Positions 3,435 through 51,057 of a stretch of DNA of 51,057 nucleotides are shown here, piece after piece (the stretch's first letter is position 1; each line of letters opens with the position of its first letter). Below the pieces are notes generated by a model that was given only the letters and a program-made list of their open reading frames with translations, was not told the origin of the DNA and made no database searches. A program made the position numbers and the translations under genes. Location: the NCBI GenBank assembly GCA_013177995.1, contig JABLXN010000025.1, positions 1 through 51,057 of the forward strand. Reading direction: 5' to 3'. The DNA comes from Brevinematales bacterium (GTDB lineage Bacteria; Spirochaetota; Brevinematia; Brevinematales; Thermospiraceae).

Positions 3435-3495
3435 TGTTTGCTCCTTACCTAAAATATACGAAAAAAATCCTGATGAGTGAAATGATTAATGATTT

Positions 3496-3699
3496 GAGAC
3501 CCTTGCTCGAGTATATTCTTCCCCTGTCTCGGTCAGGGGCTACGCCCCTGAAACCCCGCTTTTTCTGTTTACAAGGGCATATTTGTCTTTTTTATTCAAA
3601 AAGAGAGGATTTTTTATTATGATAAAAGATATTTTTATGCTATTTCTCTTTTTTTTTATAACTTTTTTTGAGACCTTTGCACATTCGTGCAAAGGTCTC
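3496..3699 (+). mobile_element. 202-bp MITE-like element, copy B
   Basis: It begins GAGACCCTTGC, carries the CAGGGGCTACGCCCCTG hairpin and ends in the 30-bp palindrome (3670-3699). The exact direct repeat GATTT flanks it (3491-3495 and 3700-3704). It sits between two minus-strand genes, splitting what may once have been one transcription unit. Bases 7-13 of its left end are slightly decayed. Confidence 0.9.
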
Positions 3700-3727
3700 G
3701 ATTTTTGAGAGAATTATTTCAAAACCT

Positions 3728-10692: not shown

Positions 10693-10895
10693 GAGAGCCT
10701 TGCACGGGTGTTTTCTTCCCCTGTTTGGGTCAGGGGCTACGCCCCTGAAACCCCGCTTTTTCTGTTCACAAGGGCTTATTTGTCTTTTTTTTTATGAAAA
10801 AAATAGGCTTGTTTATTATGGAAAGAAATATTTTTATACTACTTTTTGCTTTTTATTACTTTCTTGAGACCTTTGCACATTCGTGCAAAGGTCTC
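10693..10895 (+). mobile_element. 202-bp MITE-like element, copy C
   Basis: Full-length copy starting GAGAGCCTTGCACGGGTG (one change in the terminal repeat), with the central hairpin and the terminal palindrome 10866-10895. The exact direct repeat TAAAT flanks it (10688-10692 and 10896-10900). Confidence 0.9.
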
Positions 10896-10907
10896 TAAAT
10901 ATGAAAT

Positions 10908-11316
10908 GAGACCCTTGCACGGGTGTTTTCTTCCCCTCTTTAGGTCAGGGGCTACGCCCCTGAAACCCCGCTTTTTCTATTTCCAAGGGCTTGTTTGTCT
11001 TTTTTATTCAAAAAAATAGGGTCATTTATTACTGCAAAGAATATTTTCATACTATATTTTGAGACCCTTGCACGGGTGTTTTCTTCCCCTCTTTAGGTCA
11101 GGGGCTACGCCCCTGAAACCCCGTTTTTTCCATTTACAAGGGCTTATTTGTCTTTTTTTGTTCAAAGGAATAGTTTTATTTATTACGTTAAGGAATATTT
11201 TTATACTATTTTTTGTTTTTTACCACTTTTTTGAGACCTTCGCACATTCGTGCAAAGGTCTCATTTTGTTTTTCACCACTTTTTCGAGACCTTTTGCACA
11301 TTCGTGCAAAGGTCTC
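10908..11316 (+). mobile_element. 202-bp MITE-like element, copy D, interrupted by copy E
   Basis: The left part (10908-11060) has the normal start and central hairpin but stops short. The missing right part, including the terminal palindrome, is found at 11268-11316, beyond a second complete element. Joined, the parts give about 202 bp. The outer flanks are the exact repeat GAAAT (10903-10907 and 11317-11321). The 160 nt between this element and the methyltransferase gene hold no gene. Confidence 0.9.
11061..11262 (+). mobile_element. 202-bp MITE-like element, copy E, nested inside copy D
   Basis: A complete copy in the same orientation as its host element, with terminal palindrome 11233-11262. 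The exact 5-bp repeat ATTTT flanks it (11056-11060 and 11263-11267) within the AT-rich part of copy D. This is direct evidence of transposition after copy D was in place. Confidence 0.92.
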
Positions 11317-14265: not shown

Positions 14266-14377
14266 TCGCTCCTGCCACGGTACAATATGCAAGAAGTCCA
14301 TATTAGGGAAACAATCTCCACGGGTTGGTGAGAGAATGCCTGTTCTTTCTCCACCTCTTTTTTTTCTGTACCCTACC

Positions 14378-14819
14378 GGGCCGCTTTTGCGGTCGTATAC
14401 TCCTGGTCTTGTAGCGGGAAAGTCCTTCCGAAGTGAGGGTACGTATCAGTTGAAAGTTGAAGGTTTGTAAAGTTTGAGACCCTTGCACGGATGTTTTCTT
14501 TGCCTGTCTGGGTCAGGGGCTACGCCCCTGAAACCCCGATTTTTCTGTTTACAAGGGCCGGTTTGTCTTTTTTATTCAAAAAAATTGGTTTATTTATTAC
14601 AGCACGGAATATTTTGAACTAATTTTTGTTTCTTTATTACTTTTTTGAGACCTTTGCACATTCGTGCAAAGGTCTCAGTTTATAAAGTTGGTTGCAAGGC
14701 TCAGGAGGACGAGTTGTGGTTGCCGAAGTCTCAAGGACGAGGCAATGTCGCCCACGGAGGAAGGACTTCCCCTGGATGGAAGGAGAGGATATTTTTCTCC
14801 TTGCCCGCAAAAGCGGCCC
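14378..14819. repeat. 15-bp perfect inverted pair bracketing MITE copy F
   Basis: GGGCCGCTTTTGCGG at 14378-14392 is repeated exactly in inverted orientation at 14805-14819. Each arm is also a small hairpin by itself (CCGC-TTTT-GCGG). The pair encloses the mobile element at 14476-14676. Whether it is an older element disrupted by the MITE or a coincidence of two small hairpins is open. Confidence 0.55.
14476..14676 (+). mobile_element. 202-bp MITE-like element, copy F
   Basis: Full copy nearly identical to copy A, with terminal palindrome 14647-14676. The exact repeat AGTTT flanks it (14471-14475 and 14677-14681). The flanks are again the 9-bp RTAAAGTTT tandem repeat, so copies A and F sit in the same kind of sequence. 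Confidence 0.9.
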
Positions 14820-22778: not shown

Positions 22779-22939
22779 ATTTATGTGGTTTATGGATAAT
22801 ATCTTATCCCTCCGCAGGATGTATGTCGTTCCACACTCATACAGAATGGTTATCTTCACACAAAAACTGAATACTTGTTCAACCATCTTTTCTCTTTCAG
22901 TTTTAGGCTCTTTTTGTTACCCATCTTCTTTCTTTTACG

Positions 22940-23234
22940 AAGCGCTCCCGCGCGGGGCAAAAGGGGCTCCGCCCCTTTTGAAACCCCGGCCCCGCCCCTG
23001 CGGCGGTTTCTGTAGCCAACGACCTTCATCCCCCTGGCGGGCTGGAAGAAAAGCCTGTAGCCCCGCTCTCTTCCGTAGCCCCCCGGGGACAGCCCTCCCT
23101 GTCTGACCCCGGGCTTCCTCGCCACCTCCTGTGGCTCGGACAGTGGTGAAAAGACGATGGCTTCCATTACCAGCCCGCAGGGCACGTGTCCCCTGCAGGG
23201 GCTTCTCTCAGGTGGCACCGCGGCAGGGGCGGGG
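22940..23234. ncRNA. GC-rich foldable island, candidate structured RNA or folded mobile remnant
   Basis: This block is far richer in G/C than its surroundings. Its ends pair: 22989-23006 with 23217-23234 (17 of 18 positions). Inside, 23036-23045 pairs with 23170-23178 (one bulge). A hairpin CCCGGGGACAG/CTGT..CCCCGGG spans 23082-23113 and GCCAC-CTCCT-GTGGC spans 23121-23135. The 3' side offers alternative hairpins (GCAGGG/CCCTGC, or the palindrome CCCCTGCAGGGG at 23190-23201). A left flank (22961-22980) forms AAGGGGC/GCCCCTT. I do not recognise it as RNase P, tmRNA, SRP RNA or a group II domain, and the strand cannot be decided. The long minus-strand frame through it is an artefact of high G/C. 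The surrounding 22779-24104 stretch holds no supported protein gene. Confidence 0.45.
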
Positions 23235-23238
23235 AAAA

Positions 23239-23454
23239 GGCTATGACCTTGTTTCAGCAAAAGCCAGAGGTTAAACGTCTAACCTCCCCTATCCAGAACA
23301 AAACCACAGCTCTTGCCATGTTTCAGCAACACCCCAGCTCTCCACTTCTCTCACACAAAAGACCTATAACACACCACAGGACATACAAATACACACAACT
23401 CGTTTGAACAAAAGAGAAAGCTATCCCCCATCAGGCTGAAATAGGGGAATAGCC
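23239..23454. repeat. Second hairpin repeat family, spread copy
   Basis: A left arm GGCTATGACCTTGTTTCAGC (23239-23258) and a right arm GCTGAAATAGGGGAATAGCC (23435-23454) belong to the same family as 423-477 and 14213-14265, but here they are 176 nt apart. A partial left arm at about 23419-23428 next to the right arm gives a shorter local hairpin. The left arm begins 5 nt after the GC-rich island. Confidence 0.6.
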
Positions 23455-23550
23455 ATATCTTGCCGTCATGTTTTCAAGCACGACTCTTTTTTCAATAGGC
23501 ATCATAACAGAAAGCTTTTGTGTTGTTTCCTTTCCCTGTTCATAAGAAAT

Positions 23551-23751
23551 GAGACCTTTGCACGAATGTGCGAAGGTCTCAAAAAAGTAATAAAAAAATA
23601 AAAATAGTATAAAAATATTCCTTATCATAATAAATAATTCTACTTTTTTGAATAAAAAAAGACAAATGGCCCTTGTAAACAGAAAAAGCGGGGTTTCAGG
23701 GGCGTAGCCCCTGACCCAGATAGGGGAAGAAAACACCCGTGCAAGGGTCTC
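23551..23751 (-). mobile_element. 202-bp MITE-like element, copy G
   Basis: An inverted full copy: the terminal palindrome is 23551-23580 and the GAGACCCTTGCACGGGTG end is at 23734-23751. The exact direct repeat GAAAT flanks it (23546-23550 and 23752-23756). Confidence 0.9.
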
Positions 23752-23753
23752 GA

Positions 23754-23793
23754 AATGTGGAAATAGGTATTCAGTTTCATATGTGGAACGACA
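23754..23793 (-). repeat. 40-bp block shared with 50794-50833
   Basis: Read on the minus strand it begins TGTCGTTCCACATATGAAAC and matches 50794-50833 at 39 of 40 positions. A weaker version lies near 22822-22860. It touches MITE copy G here but is 14 bp from copy J at the other locus, so it is a separate repeat. Confidence 0.75.
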
Positions 23794-23832
23794 ATCCCTC
23801 CGCAGGATCTATAGCTTCCATGCCCTTGAAAT

Positions 23833-24033
23833 GAGACCTTTGCACATTCGTGCAAAGGTCTCAAAAAAGTAATAAAGAAACAAAAAGTAGTATCAAAATG
23901 TTCCTTGTTGTAATAAATAAACCAATTTTTTTGAATAAAAAAGACAAACCTGCCCCTGTAAACAGACAAATCGGGGGAGAGGGGTGCAGCCCCTGATCCA
24001 AACAGGGGAAGAAAACACCCGTGCAAGGGTCTT
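23833..24033 (-). mobile_element. 202-bp MITE-like element, copy H
   Basis: An inverted copy with palindrome 23833-23862. The last base of the outer end is changed (GGTCTT), and the central hairpin has drifted to GGGGAGAGGGGTGCAGCCCC. The exact repeat GAAAT flanks it (23828-23832 and 24034-24038). The drift marks it as an older copy. Confidence 0.87.
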
Positions 24034-24038
24034 GAAAT

Positions 24039-24067
24039 TTGATTTTTCTCTTTCTCCTGTTTACAAT
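24039..24067 (+). promoter_or_regulatory. Promoter of the TPR-ligA operon
   Basis: TTGATT (24039-24044), a 17-nt spacer and TACAAT (24062-24067) begin directly after the target duplication of MITE copy H and precede the start codon at 24105. Confidence 0.65.
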
Positions 24068-32843: not shown

Positions 32844-33044
32844 AAGACCCTTGCGCGGATGTTTTCTTCCCCTATCTGGGTCAGGGGCTACGCCCCTGAA
32901 ACCCCGCTTTTTCTGTTTACAAGAGCTTATTTGTCTTTTTTTATTCAAAAAATAGGCTTTTTTATTATGGGAAGAAATATTTTTATCCTGTTTTTTGTTT
33001 TTTATTCCTTTTTTGAGACCTTTGCCCATTCGTGCAAAGGTCTC
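32844..33044 (+). mobile_element. 202-bp MITE-like element, copy I
   Basis: Complete copy with slightly decayed ends (AAGACCCTTGCGCGGATG; palindrome 33015-33044 with one mismatch). The flanks are TAAAA and AAAAT, so no exact duplication is visible. A partial extra copy of the left end (CTCTTGCACGGAT) lies at 32827-32839. It separates htpG from the divergent paralogue pair. Confidence 0.82.
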
Positions 33045-33064
33045 AAAATTGTGACAAATGCCTA

Positions 33065-50545: not shown

Positions 50546-50579
50546 AAGGAGGGGATATGAACCAGAAGAAAAATTTTTC

Positions 50580-50780
50580 GAGACCCTTGCACGGGTGTTT
50601 TCTTCCCTTGTTTGGGTCAGGAGCTACGCCCCTGAAACCCCGCTTTTTCTGTTTACAAGGGCTTATTTGTCTTTTTTATTCAAAAAAGTAGAATTATTTA
50701 TTATGATAAGGAATATTTTTATACTATTTTTGTTTTTTTACTACTTTTTTGAGACCTTCGCACATTCGTGCAAAGGTCTC
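50580..50780 (+). mobile_element. 202-bp MITE-like element, copy J
   Basis: Complete copy with ends GAGACCCTTGCACGGGTG and palindrome 50751-50780. The flanks are TTTTC and TTTCT, so no exact 5-bp duplication is seen. Its body is closest to copy G (23551-23751). Confidence 0.87.
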
Positions 50781-50793
50781 TTTCTTTTTCTCT

Positions 50794-50833
50794 TGTCGTT
50801 CCACATATGAAACTGAATACCTATTTTCACATT
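50794..50833 (+). repeat. 40-bp block shared with 23754-23793
   Basis: It begins TGTCGTTCCACATATGAAAC and matches the inverted copy at 23754-23793 at 39 of 40 positions. Its last base is the first base of the -35 box of the promoter that follows. Confidence 0.75.
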
Positions 50834-50897
50834 TGACAAAGAAGGGGCAACGAAGGGATAATAAGGAGGAACTATGAAGAGGAGTCAACTATTATAA
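50833..50897 (+). pseudogene. Promoter, ribosome site and first codons of a gene cut off by an insertion
   Basis: TTGACA (50833-50838), 18 nt, GATAAT (50857-50862), then AAGGAGG and ATG at 50874. Only seven codons (MKRSQLL) follow before TAA. The opposite strand from 50894 onward encodes the end of an IS110-type transposase. The simplest reading is a normal gene start interrupted by the insertion sequence; the lost gene cannot be named. Confidence 0.55.
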
Positions 50898-51057
50898 ATT
50901 CACCTCCTGAGGGAAGGATGTAAGGCGGAGGGGGTCGAAGGTAGTTTGATGAGAGAGCATGGCGTAGAGGAGGCGAAGGAGTTTGTGAGCCACGCAGAGA
51001 TTGGCCTTTTTAGCAACACGGGATTGAGCAAATTTGAGGTTAAAATACTCACCGAAA
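50892..51057 (-). CDS. IS110-family transposase, C-terminal fragment at the window edge
   Basis: The last 54 codons are visible on the minus strand, ending with TAA at 50892-50894. The peptide includes QSRVAKKANLCVAHKLLRLL and AMLSHQTTFDP, typical of the C-terminal end of IS110/IS116/IS902 transposases. The rest lies beyond the window. IS110 elements move as circles guided by a bridge RNA from the non-coding end upstream of the transposase, which is not included here. Almost no sequence separates the stop codon from the broken gene start, so the right end of the element must be very short or overlap it. Confidence 0.72.
   Translation of the reverse strand, partial: FGEYFNLKFAQSRVAKKANLCVAHKLLRLLYAMLSHQTTFDPLRLTSFPQEVNL

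Follow-up and report, generated by a model that had tools for sequence, protein, structure and literature searches.

Background

CsrA controls flagellin production in other bacteria, and in Bacillus subtilis the hag leader, which is under CsrA control, is laid out with a hairpin site and the Shine-Dalgarno sequence, the same arrangement that we describe below for the flagellin leaders of a spirochaete genus. The SELEX consensus for CsrA is RUACARGGAUGU, and the repeats of CsrB read CAGGA(U/A/C)G (PMC7652899). Plasmid-borne CsrA/Rsm regulators take over host behaviour (PMC9928087). For the spirochaetes, FliW has been proposed as a CsrA antagonist, and homologues of csrB and csrC have been reported missing in Leptospira (PMC8668096). 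Among mobile elements, the IS1202 family, which was split from ISNCY, is characterized by ends of the form 5'-TGT; in one of its subgroups the target duplications are 16-28 bp long (PMC10132070).

The DNA analysed here, referred to as the window, is a stretch of 51,057 nucleotides from a Brevinematales bacterium (contig JABLXN010000025.1). The genome is that of a spirochaete; among named organisms, its FolD protein is closest to that of Spirochaetes bacterium GWF1_49_6, at 57% identity. An original prediction, made from the letters alone, had pointed to a GC-rich island at 22940-23234, closed by an 18-bp stem, as a possible structured RNA of no recognizable class. The GC peak is real, at 0.65-0.69 over 22950-23250 compared with approximately 0.39-0.45 on either side. 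The segment 22940-23280 folds better than 100 of 100 dinucleotide shuffles on both strands (z -3.55 on the plus strand, -3.43 on the minus strand). Rfam returned no match at the gathering threshold and nothing relevant in the element at E<=1, in agreement with the statement that no known class applies. The interpretation of the island as a decayed protein gene was rejected: its open reading frames (ORFs) belong to no Pfam or PHROGs family (a lone match with an E-value of 0.32 was regarded as noise) and their frames are shifted by insertions and deletions among copies.

Results and discussion

A transposable element surrounds the island

The proposed unit was too small. Rather than a solitary gene, the island is the centre of a non-autonomous transposable element of 970 bp (22824-23793), at both ends of which the homology among copies stops. 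The element is bounded by a perfect 12-bp pair of terminal inverted repeats, TGTCGTTCCACA on the left (22824-22835, plus strand) and TGTGGAACGACA on the right (23782-23793, minus strand), and flanked by a target-site duplication whose left copy, ATCCCTCCGCAGGAT (22806-22820), is identical at 15 of 15 positions to the right copy (23794-23808). Approximately 200 bp of this length are owed to a later nested insertion, a second repeat of about 205 bp that starts TGAGACCTTTGCAC (23550-23751); it is missing from a clean copy of 758 bp (L011) and so does not belong to the original element. A 22-codon micro-ORF following AAGAAAGAAG (22856-22924, minus strand) is intact in the window copy and broken in most others, where start or frame is lost, and is thus probably not a gene.

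A blastn search with 22930-23250 against the organism's own genome (2,381,186 bases in 57 contigs) produced 51 matches with identities of 75-98%; roughly 25 of the matches are long. Across the genome there are 36 left ends of the element and 48 right ends, and many copies are truncated, nested or mosaic. Target duplications of 14-30 bp, mostly 15-19, accompany 10 of the 21 complete elements, compared with 2 of 420 swapped flank pairs that gave any score >=9. By crude ORF calls, the flanking genes are divergent for 10 of these 21 elements, co-directional for another 10 and convergent for none; upstream regions thus seem favoured for insertion or survival of the element.

Three elements of approximately 1.37 kb with identical ends are present in the same genome, and the two that were examined encode an ISNCY/IS1202-like transposase, which is intact in L080, as a DDE protein of 404 aa, and is represented in L076 by a reading frame of 354 aa. 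The transposase is confined to these separate elements; no autonomous version of the core with protein-coding content was found. The window element, whose ends are shared with a transposase-bearing partner, is therefore a non-autonomous, MITE-like derivative; its inverted repeats and target duplications, together with the partner transposase, demonstrate its mobility. The best NCBIfam model for the transposase is ISNCY_2 (E 2.5e-37, 128.9 bits), under the curated cut-off of 250, followed by IS481 (121.6 against a cut-off of 224), and Pfam recognizes a weak rve core. Akin to the long-duplication group of IS1202, the system has 5'-TGT ends, unusually long duplications (14-30 bp), terminal repeats common to the transposase-bearing element and a 404-aa DDE transposase in the partner; unlike IS1202, the window element carries an RNA and no transposase, and the partner's transposase scores under the ISNCY_2 cut-off. 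The fit to IS1202 is good, though short of formal membership.

A relationship to HEARO/omega RNAs, also raised in the original prediction, found no support. The present system resembles them in joining a large, GC-rich structured RNA to a mobile element, but it differs in having no Rfam match, a DDE partner transposase of the ISNCY/IS1202 type instead of IscB/TnpB, inverted repeats and long target duplications.

Architecture of the RNA core

Read from the minus strand, the structured core (model R1) comprises 239 nt at 22993-23231, or 22990-23234 with the full outer stem, and matches its covariance model with 258.5 bits; its assignment further draws on the covariation and on the asymmetry between G-U and A-C pairs presented below. 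The outer stem, P1, pairs its 5' strand (23217-23234) with its 3' strand (22990-23007) at 17 of 18 positions, so that the closing stem that had been proposed is real, with its left arm displaced by one base. Within P1, stem P2 joins GCGGGCTGG (5' strand, 23170-23178) to CCAGCCCGC (3' strand, 23038-23046); in the sister species the same stem is GTGAGCTGG/CCAGCTCAC. Two adjacent hairpins follow on the minus strand: P4 (23117-23139), CCGAGCCAC-AGGAG-GTGGCGAGG, which presents a CsrB-like CAGGAKG loop, and P3 (23081-23114), with the loop C-ANGGAK-G. P2, P3 and P4 correspond to nested stems already suspected and are conserved; the remaining one, at 23177-23201, varies among copies and is weakly supported.

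The stems of both hairpins change in a paired manner. In P4, G-C is replaced by A-U in two copies (L018 and L025), and an alignment of 21 cores from the own genome contains three paired versions of the P3 stem (GCCCGGGG/CCCCGGGC, GACCGGGG/CCCCGGTC and GCTCAAGG/CCTTGAGC), to which the sister species adds a fourth; nearly all are paired. When both species are compared, pairing reaches 97-98% in helices 1 and 2, with a double change at 6 pairs. On the 3' side of the core lies a perfect hairpin (CAAAAGGGGCGGAGCCCCTTTTG; 22958-22980, minus strand), and in the same place the sister species has AAGGGGGACT/AGTCTCCCTT after GGGGTTTCAA.

Homologues, covariation and the strand under selection

Although its 18 input copies all came from the window's own genome, the covariance model recovers end to end all seven diverged copies present in G002, the genome of a sister species within the genus, with E-values of 1e-17 to 1e-28. 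The first matches to G002 were short and weak and turned out to represent a full homologue, in which P1, P2, P4 and P3 occur in the same order around a nearly equal inner length of 140-143 nt, with different stems. Convincing matches were confined to 2 of 393 genomes of the phylum, and the third genome of the genus, G001, gave no match to the RNA. Outside the genus, the matches in G033 and G189 were dismissed as an unrelated GC-rich repeat array and an unrelated GC-rich stretch, respectively, and G252 contains a partial match of 34 bases. The exact P4 pattern had no matches in collections of genome and viral contigs, in which near records may be masked. With dozens of homologues in the genome and seven in the sister species, compensatory changes among them, and no Rfam class or protein family that fits, the expectation of an unknown structured RNA was borne out, and its status as an RNA family not in Rfam is well supported by the sequence comparisons.

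In a joint alignment of 27 copies (26 distinct) from the two species, 95.6% of the cells are paired, compared with 38-51% for slid structures; 18 base pairs show a double change, and 77 cells are double-changed, compared with 16.5±3.3 after shuffling and 2-15 for slid structures. This alignment was fitted to the model and hence leans towards the structure, whereas MAFFT versions misplaced the sister-species P2 or P3 by one base. A MAFFT alignment of the own-genome copies, free of structure bias, yields 16 double changes against 3.6±1.4 in shuffles, a count that, being taken within a single genome, partly reflects shared ancestry.

A real RNA tolerates G-U pairs and not A-C pairs. On the minus strand of the own-genome copies, 12 pair columns contain G-U and a single one contains A-C, compared with 26 C/T and 41 A/G among unpaired columns (Fisher p 0.0005). 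With both species included, the values are 21 and 7 for the pair columns and 22 C/T and 51 A/G for the unpaired columns, a bias in the opposite direction (Fisher p 9e-5). This preference for G-U over A-C points to pairing selected at the level of a minus-strand RNA, rather than of a DNA hairpin or palindrome.

Invariant GGA loops resemble CsrA sites

While the stems change, GGA is invariant in the loops of both hairpins, P3 and P4, in 27 of 27 copies. The P3 hairpin of G002, AAUAC-AAGGAU-GUAUU, contains the CsrA SELEX consensus RUACARGGAUGU exactly (AUACAAGGAUGU) and has precisely the layout of a generic CsrA site, GGA in a hairpin loop with AC/GU paired under a loop of six bases. In the own species P3 is C-ANGGAG-G, where N takes all four bases; it conforms to CANGGANG in 16 of the 18 modelled copies, has a mismatched pair adjoining the loop in most copies, and has a shortened loop in L033 and L034. 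P4, CCAC-AGGAK-GUGG, resembles the CAGGA(U/A/C)G repeats of CsrB, and its own-species loop, AGGAG, also resembles a Shine-Dalgarno sequence. A single csrA gene (PF02599) is present in the own genome and in each of its two congeners.

Perfect GGA pentaloop hairpins are concentrated in the elements: in 263 kb of sequence enriched for elements, 50 of 52 fall within elements of the type described above (type 1) or their type-2 relatives, and the opposite strand of the 21 complete elements has none. GGA hexaloop hairpins of the flagellin-leader type are otherwise rare: 100 kb of the window contained 6, and 98 kb from the sister species contained 2. Each type-1 RNA offers two strong GGA sites and most type-2 modules one, fewer than the approximately 18-22 of CsrB. 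The likeness to CsrB, CsrC and RsmX/Y/Z consists of GGA-loop hairpins matching CAGGANG or CANGGANG, together with the presence of csrA in the genome; the differences are the lack of a match to the Rfam sequences or models, two strong sites in place of about 18-22, a single long closing stem, the multicopy occurrence on a transposable element, and the confinement to a single genus of spirochaetes. Judging from these motifs, the element RNA is probably CsrA-binding. The carriage of the repeat on a transposable element, the minus-strand RNA and the two invariant GGA loops pointing to CsrA lay beyond the sight of the original prediction.

Flagellin leaders and type-2 modules

Several flagellin leaders of the genus (three genomes read) contain GAAGAC-AAGGAU-GUCUUC, GAAGAC-ACGGAU-GUCUUC or CCCAC-AAGGAU-GUGGG. 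This hairpin lies approximately 34-36 nt ahead of the start codon, just upstream of the Shine-Dalgarno sequence AAGGAGG at -12. The strict hairpin was not seen in 2 of the 6 readable leaders. The leaders in L240, L239, L238 and L242, in which CANGGAUG forms a hairpin near -35 and AAGGAGG follows at -12, are themselves probable CsrA sites in the genus. The element RNA shares with the flagellin leaders, both of this genus and of hag in B. subtilis, the short-stem hexaloop hairpin C-ANGGAU-G; it differs in that their second site is the Shine-Dalgarno sequence, whereas the element RNA has two hairpin sites and, in its own genome, no adjacent start codon.

Modules of a second type (L038 1479-2785, L044 1399-2146 and others) have the same element ends and outer stem around a different GC-rich interior. 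Their GGA pentaloop hairpin combines a nearly fixed AGGAG loop with three paired versions of the stem (GGTGC/GCACC, GGCAC/GTGCC and GACAC/GTGTC). The type-2 module is probably a second structured RNA. Possible type-2 relatives in the window are located at 14267-14422 and 576-683.

Context in the sister species and transcription

The two species harbour the RNA in different contexts. In G002 the module stands immediately in front of 5'-truncated gene copies, an arrangement found at two distinct joints. The adjacent genes share the strand of the RNA, and the module ends in GGGAGGAGG, a few bases ahead of a possible GTG start. Arrays of 5'-truncated copies of long genes, each then followed by a small lipoprotein-like gene, occupy G002 L115-L118 (384-408 kb, 1628-1637 kb and 2166-2182 kb); most of the truncated copies are preceded by the RNA. 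Neither Pfam nor NCBIfam gave a match to these arrays, which have the look of cassettes displaced from a polymorphic gene for a surface protein or toxin.

Within the clean copy L011, no sigma-70-like promoter was detected on the strand of the RNA, so transcription would need to start outside the element. Only 4 of the 21 complete copies lie downstream of a co-oriented neighbour, and read-through would therefore serve few copies.

Proposed function and alternatives

We propose, with about even confidence, that, within a non-autonomous IS1202-like element, the island is an RNA gene or a leader module whose P4 and P3 loops would bind a CsrA dimer, so that transcripts bearing the module hold or titrate CsrA. 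The minus-strand read folds into the long closing stem P1, the inner stem P2 and the adjacent hairpins P4 and P3 presenting GGA, and a CsrA dimer could bridge both loops, which lie about 31 nt apart from GGA to GGA. More than 20 full type-1 RNAs and more than 20 further type-2 hairpin copies in the own genome might jointly form a dispersed CsrA sink and a regulator linked to insertion. Whether the dispersed copies titrate CsrA or exert a leader-type control over adjacent genes, as the G002 arrangement suggests, is the more speculative step; in the sister species the module would be the upstream leader of the truncated genes. On a broader scale, the elements may have seeded the chromosome with some fifty CsrA-binding modules, such that copy number, read-through and insertion before genes set the level of free CsrA and tie new genes to the flagellar and carbon circuit, a scenario that we advance only tentatively.

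A structured RNA with a different task is an unlikely explanation, in which the GGA loops contact the 16S anti-Shine-Dalgarno sequence, a different protein or some other segment of the RNA, and the molecule serves the element, for example as a leader controlling the readout of adjacent sequence. AGGAG is a perfect Shine-Dalgarno core, the G002 module stops just before its possible GTG start, and the long P1 and the conserved hairpin after GGGGTTTCAA exceed the needs of CsrA. The G002 loops, AGGAU and AAGGAU, are nevertheless poor anti-Shine-Dalgarno partners, yet they match the flagellin-leader hairpins; the own-species loops have no start codon at Shine-Dalgarno spacing, and the one variable loop position (CANGGA) is the position that is free in CsrA sites. 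It is rather improbable that the element is a selfish passenger, a MITE that spread with a formerly functional RNA and no longer serves the host, with the structure kept up only among recently active copies. Such a history would suit its presence in only 2 of 3 genomes of one genus, the many truncated, nested and mosaic copies, the lack of a promoter and the mostly broken micro-ORF, and the absence of complete copies from convergent gaps (0 of 21) is what plain insertion preference predicts; the compensatory and G-U changes, however, signify that pairing was selected during divergence to approximately 75% identity and across species. Very improbable, in our estimation, is a device acting at the level of DNA, in which single-stranded DNA would extrude the hairpins to signal recombination or transposition, and paired changes would arise via palindrome correction. 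The core does lie inside a transposable element and, in G002, coincides exactly with the breakpoints of the truncated genes, but palindrome correction should favour neither G-U over A-C on one strand nor the retention of one-strand GGA loops while the stems change, and the transposase acts on terminal repeats that are 150-550 bp from the core.

Whichever function applies, the analysis adds an RNA family missing from Rfam, with dozens of diverged natural copies whose covariation fixes the fold. Should the proposed binding of CsrA hold, this would be, to our knowledge, the first MITE-like DNA element carrying a CsrA-binding RNA; the element RNA would be a counterpart to the plasmid-borne CsrA/Rsm regulators, and the spirochaetes would gain a candidate RNA antagonist of CsrA.

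Other repeats in the window

The repeat of about 205 bp found nested in the studied element belongs to a family that starts TGAGACCTTTGCAC-N4-GTGCAAAGGTCTCA, ends near CCCGTGCAAGGGTCTC and inserts into other repeats, including this element. Its copies in the window are at 156-365, 3493-3704, 10693-11266, 14473-14680, 23546-23759, 23828-24041, 32845-33045 and 50576-50786. At 50794-51057 lies the right end of another copy of the transposable element, running off the end of the window, and many contigs of the assembly also terminate in these repeats. Beside the core, a motif GGCTATGACNTTGTTTCAGCAAA(A)GCC is repeated at 23240-23265 and 23309-23334 of the window and at several places in L038; its RNA-strand form, CTTTGCTGAAACAAAG, can fold into a small hairpin.
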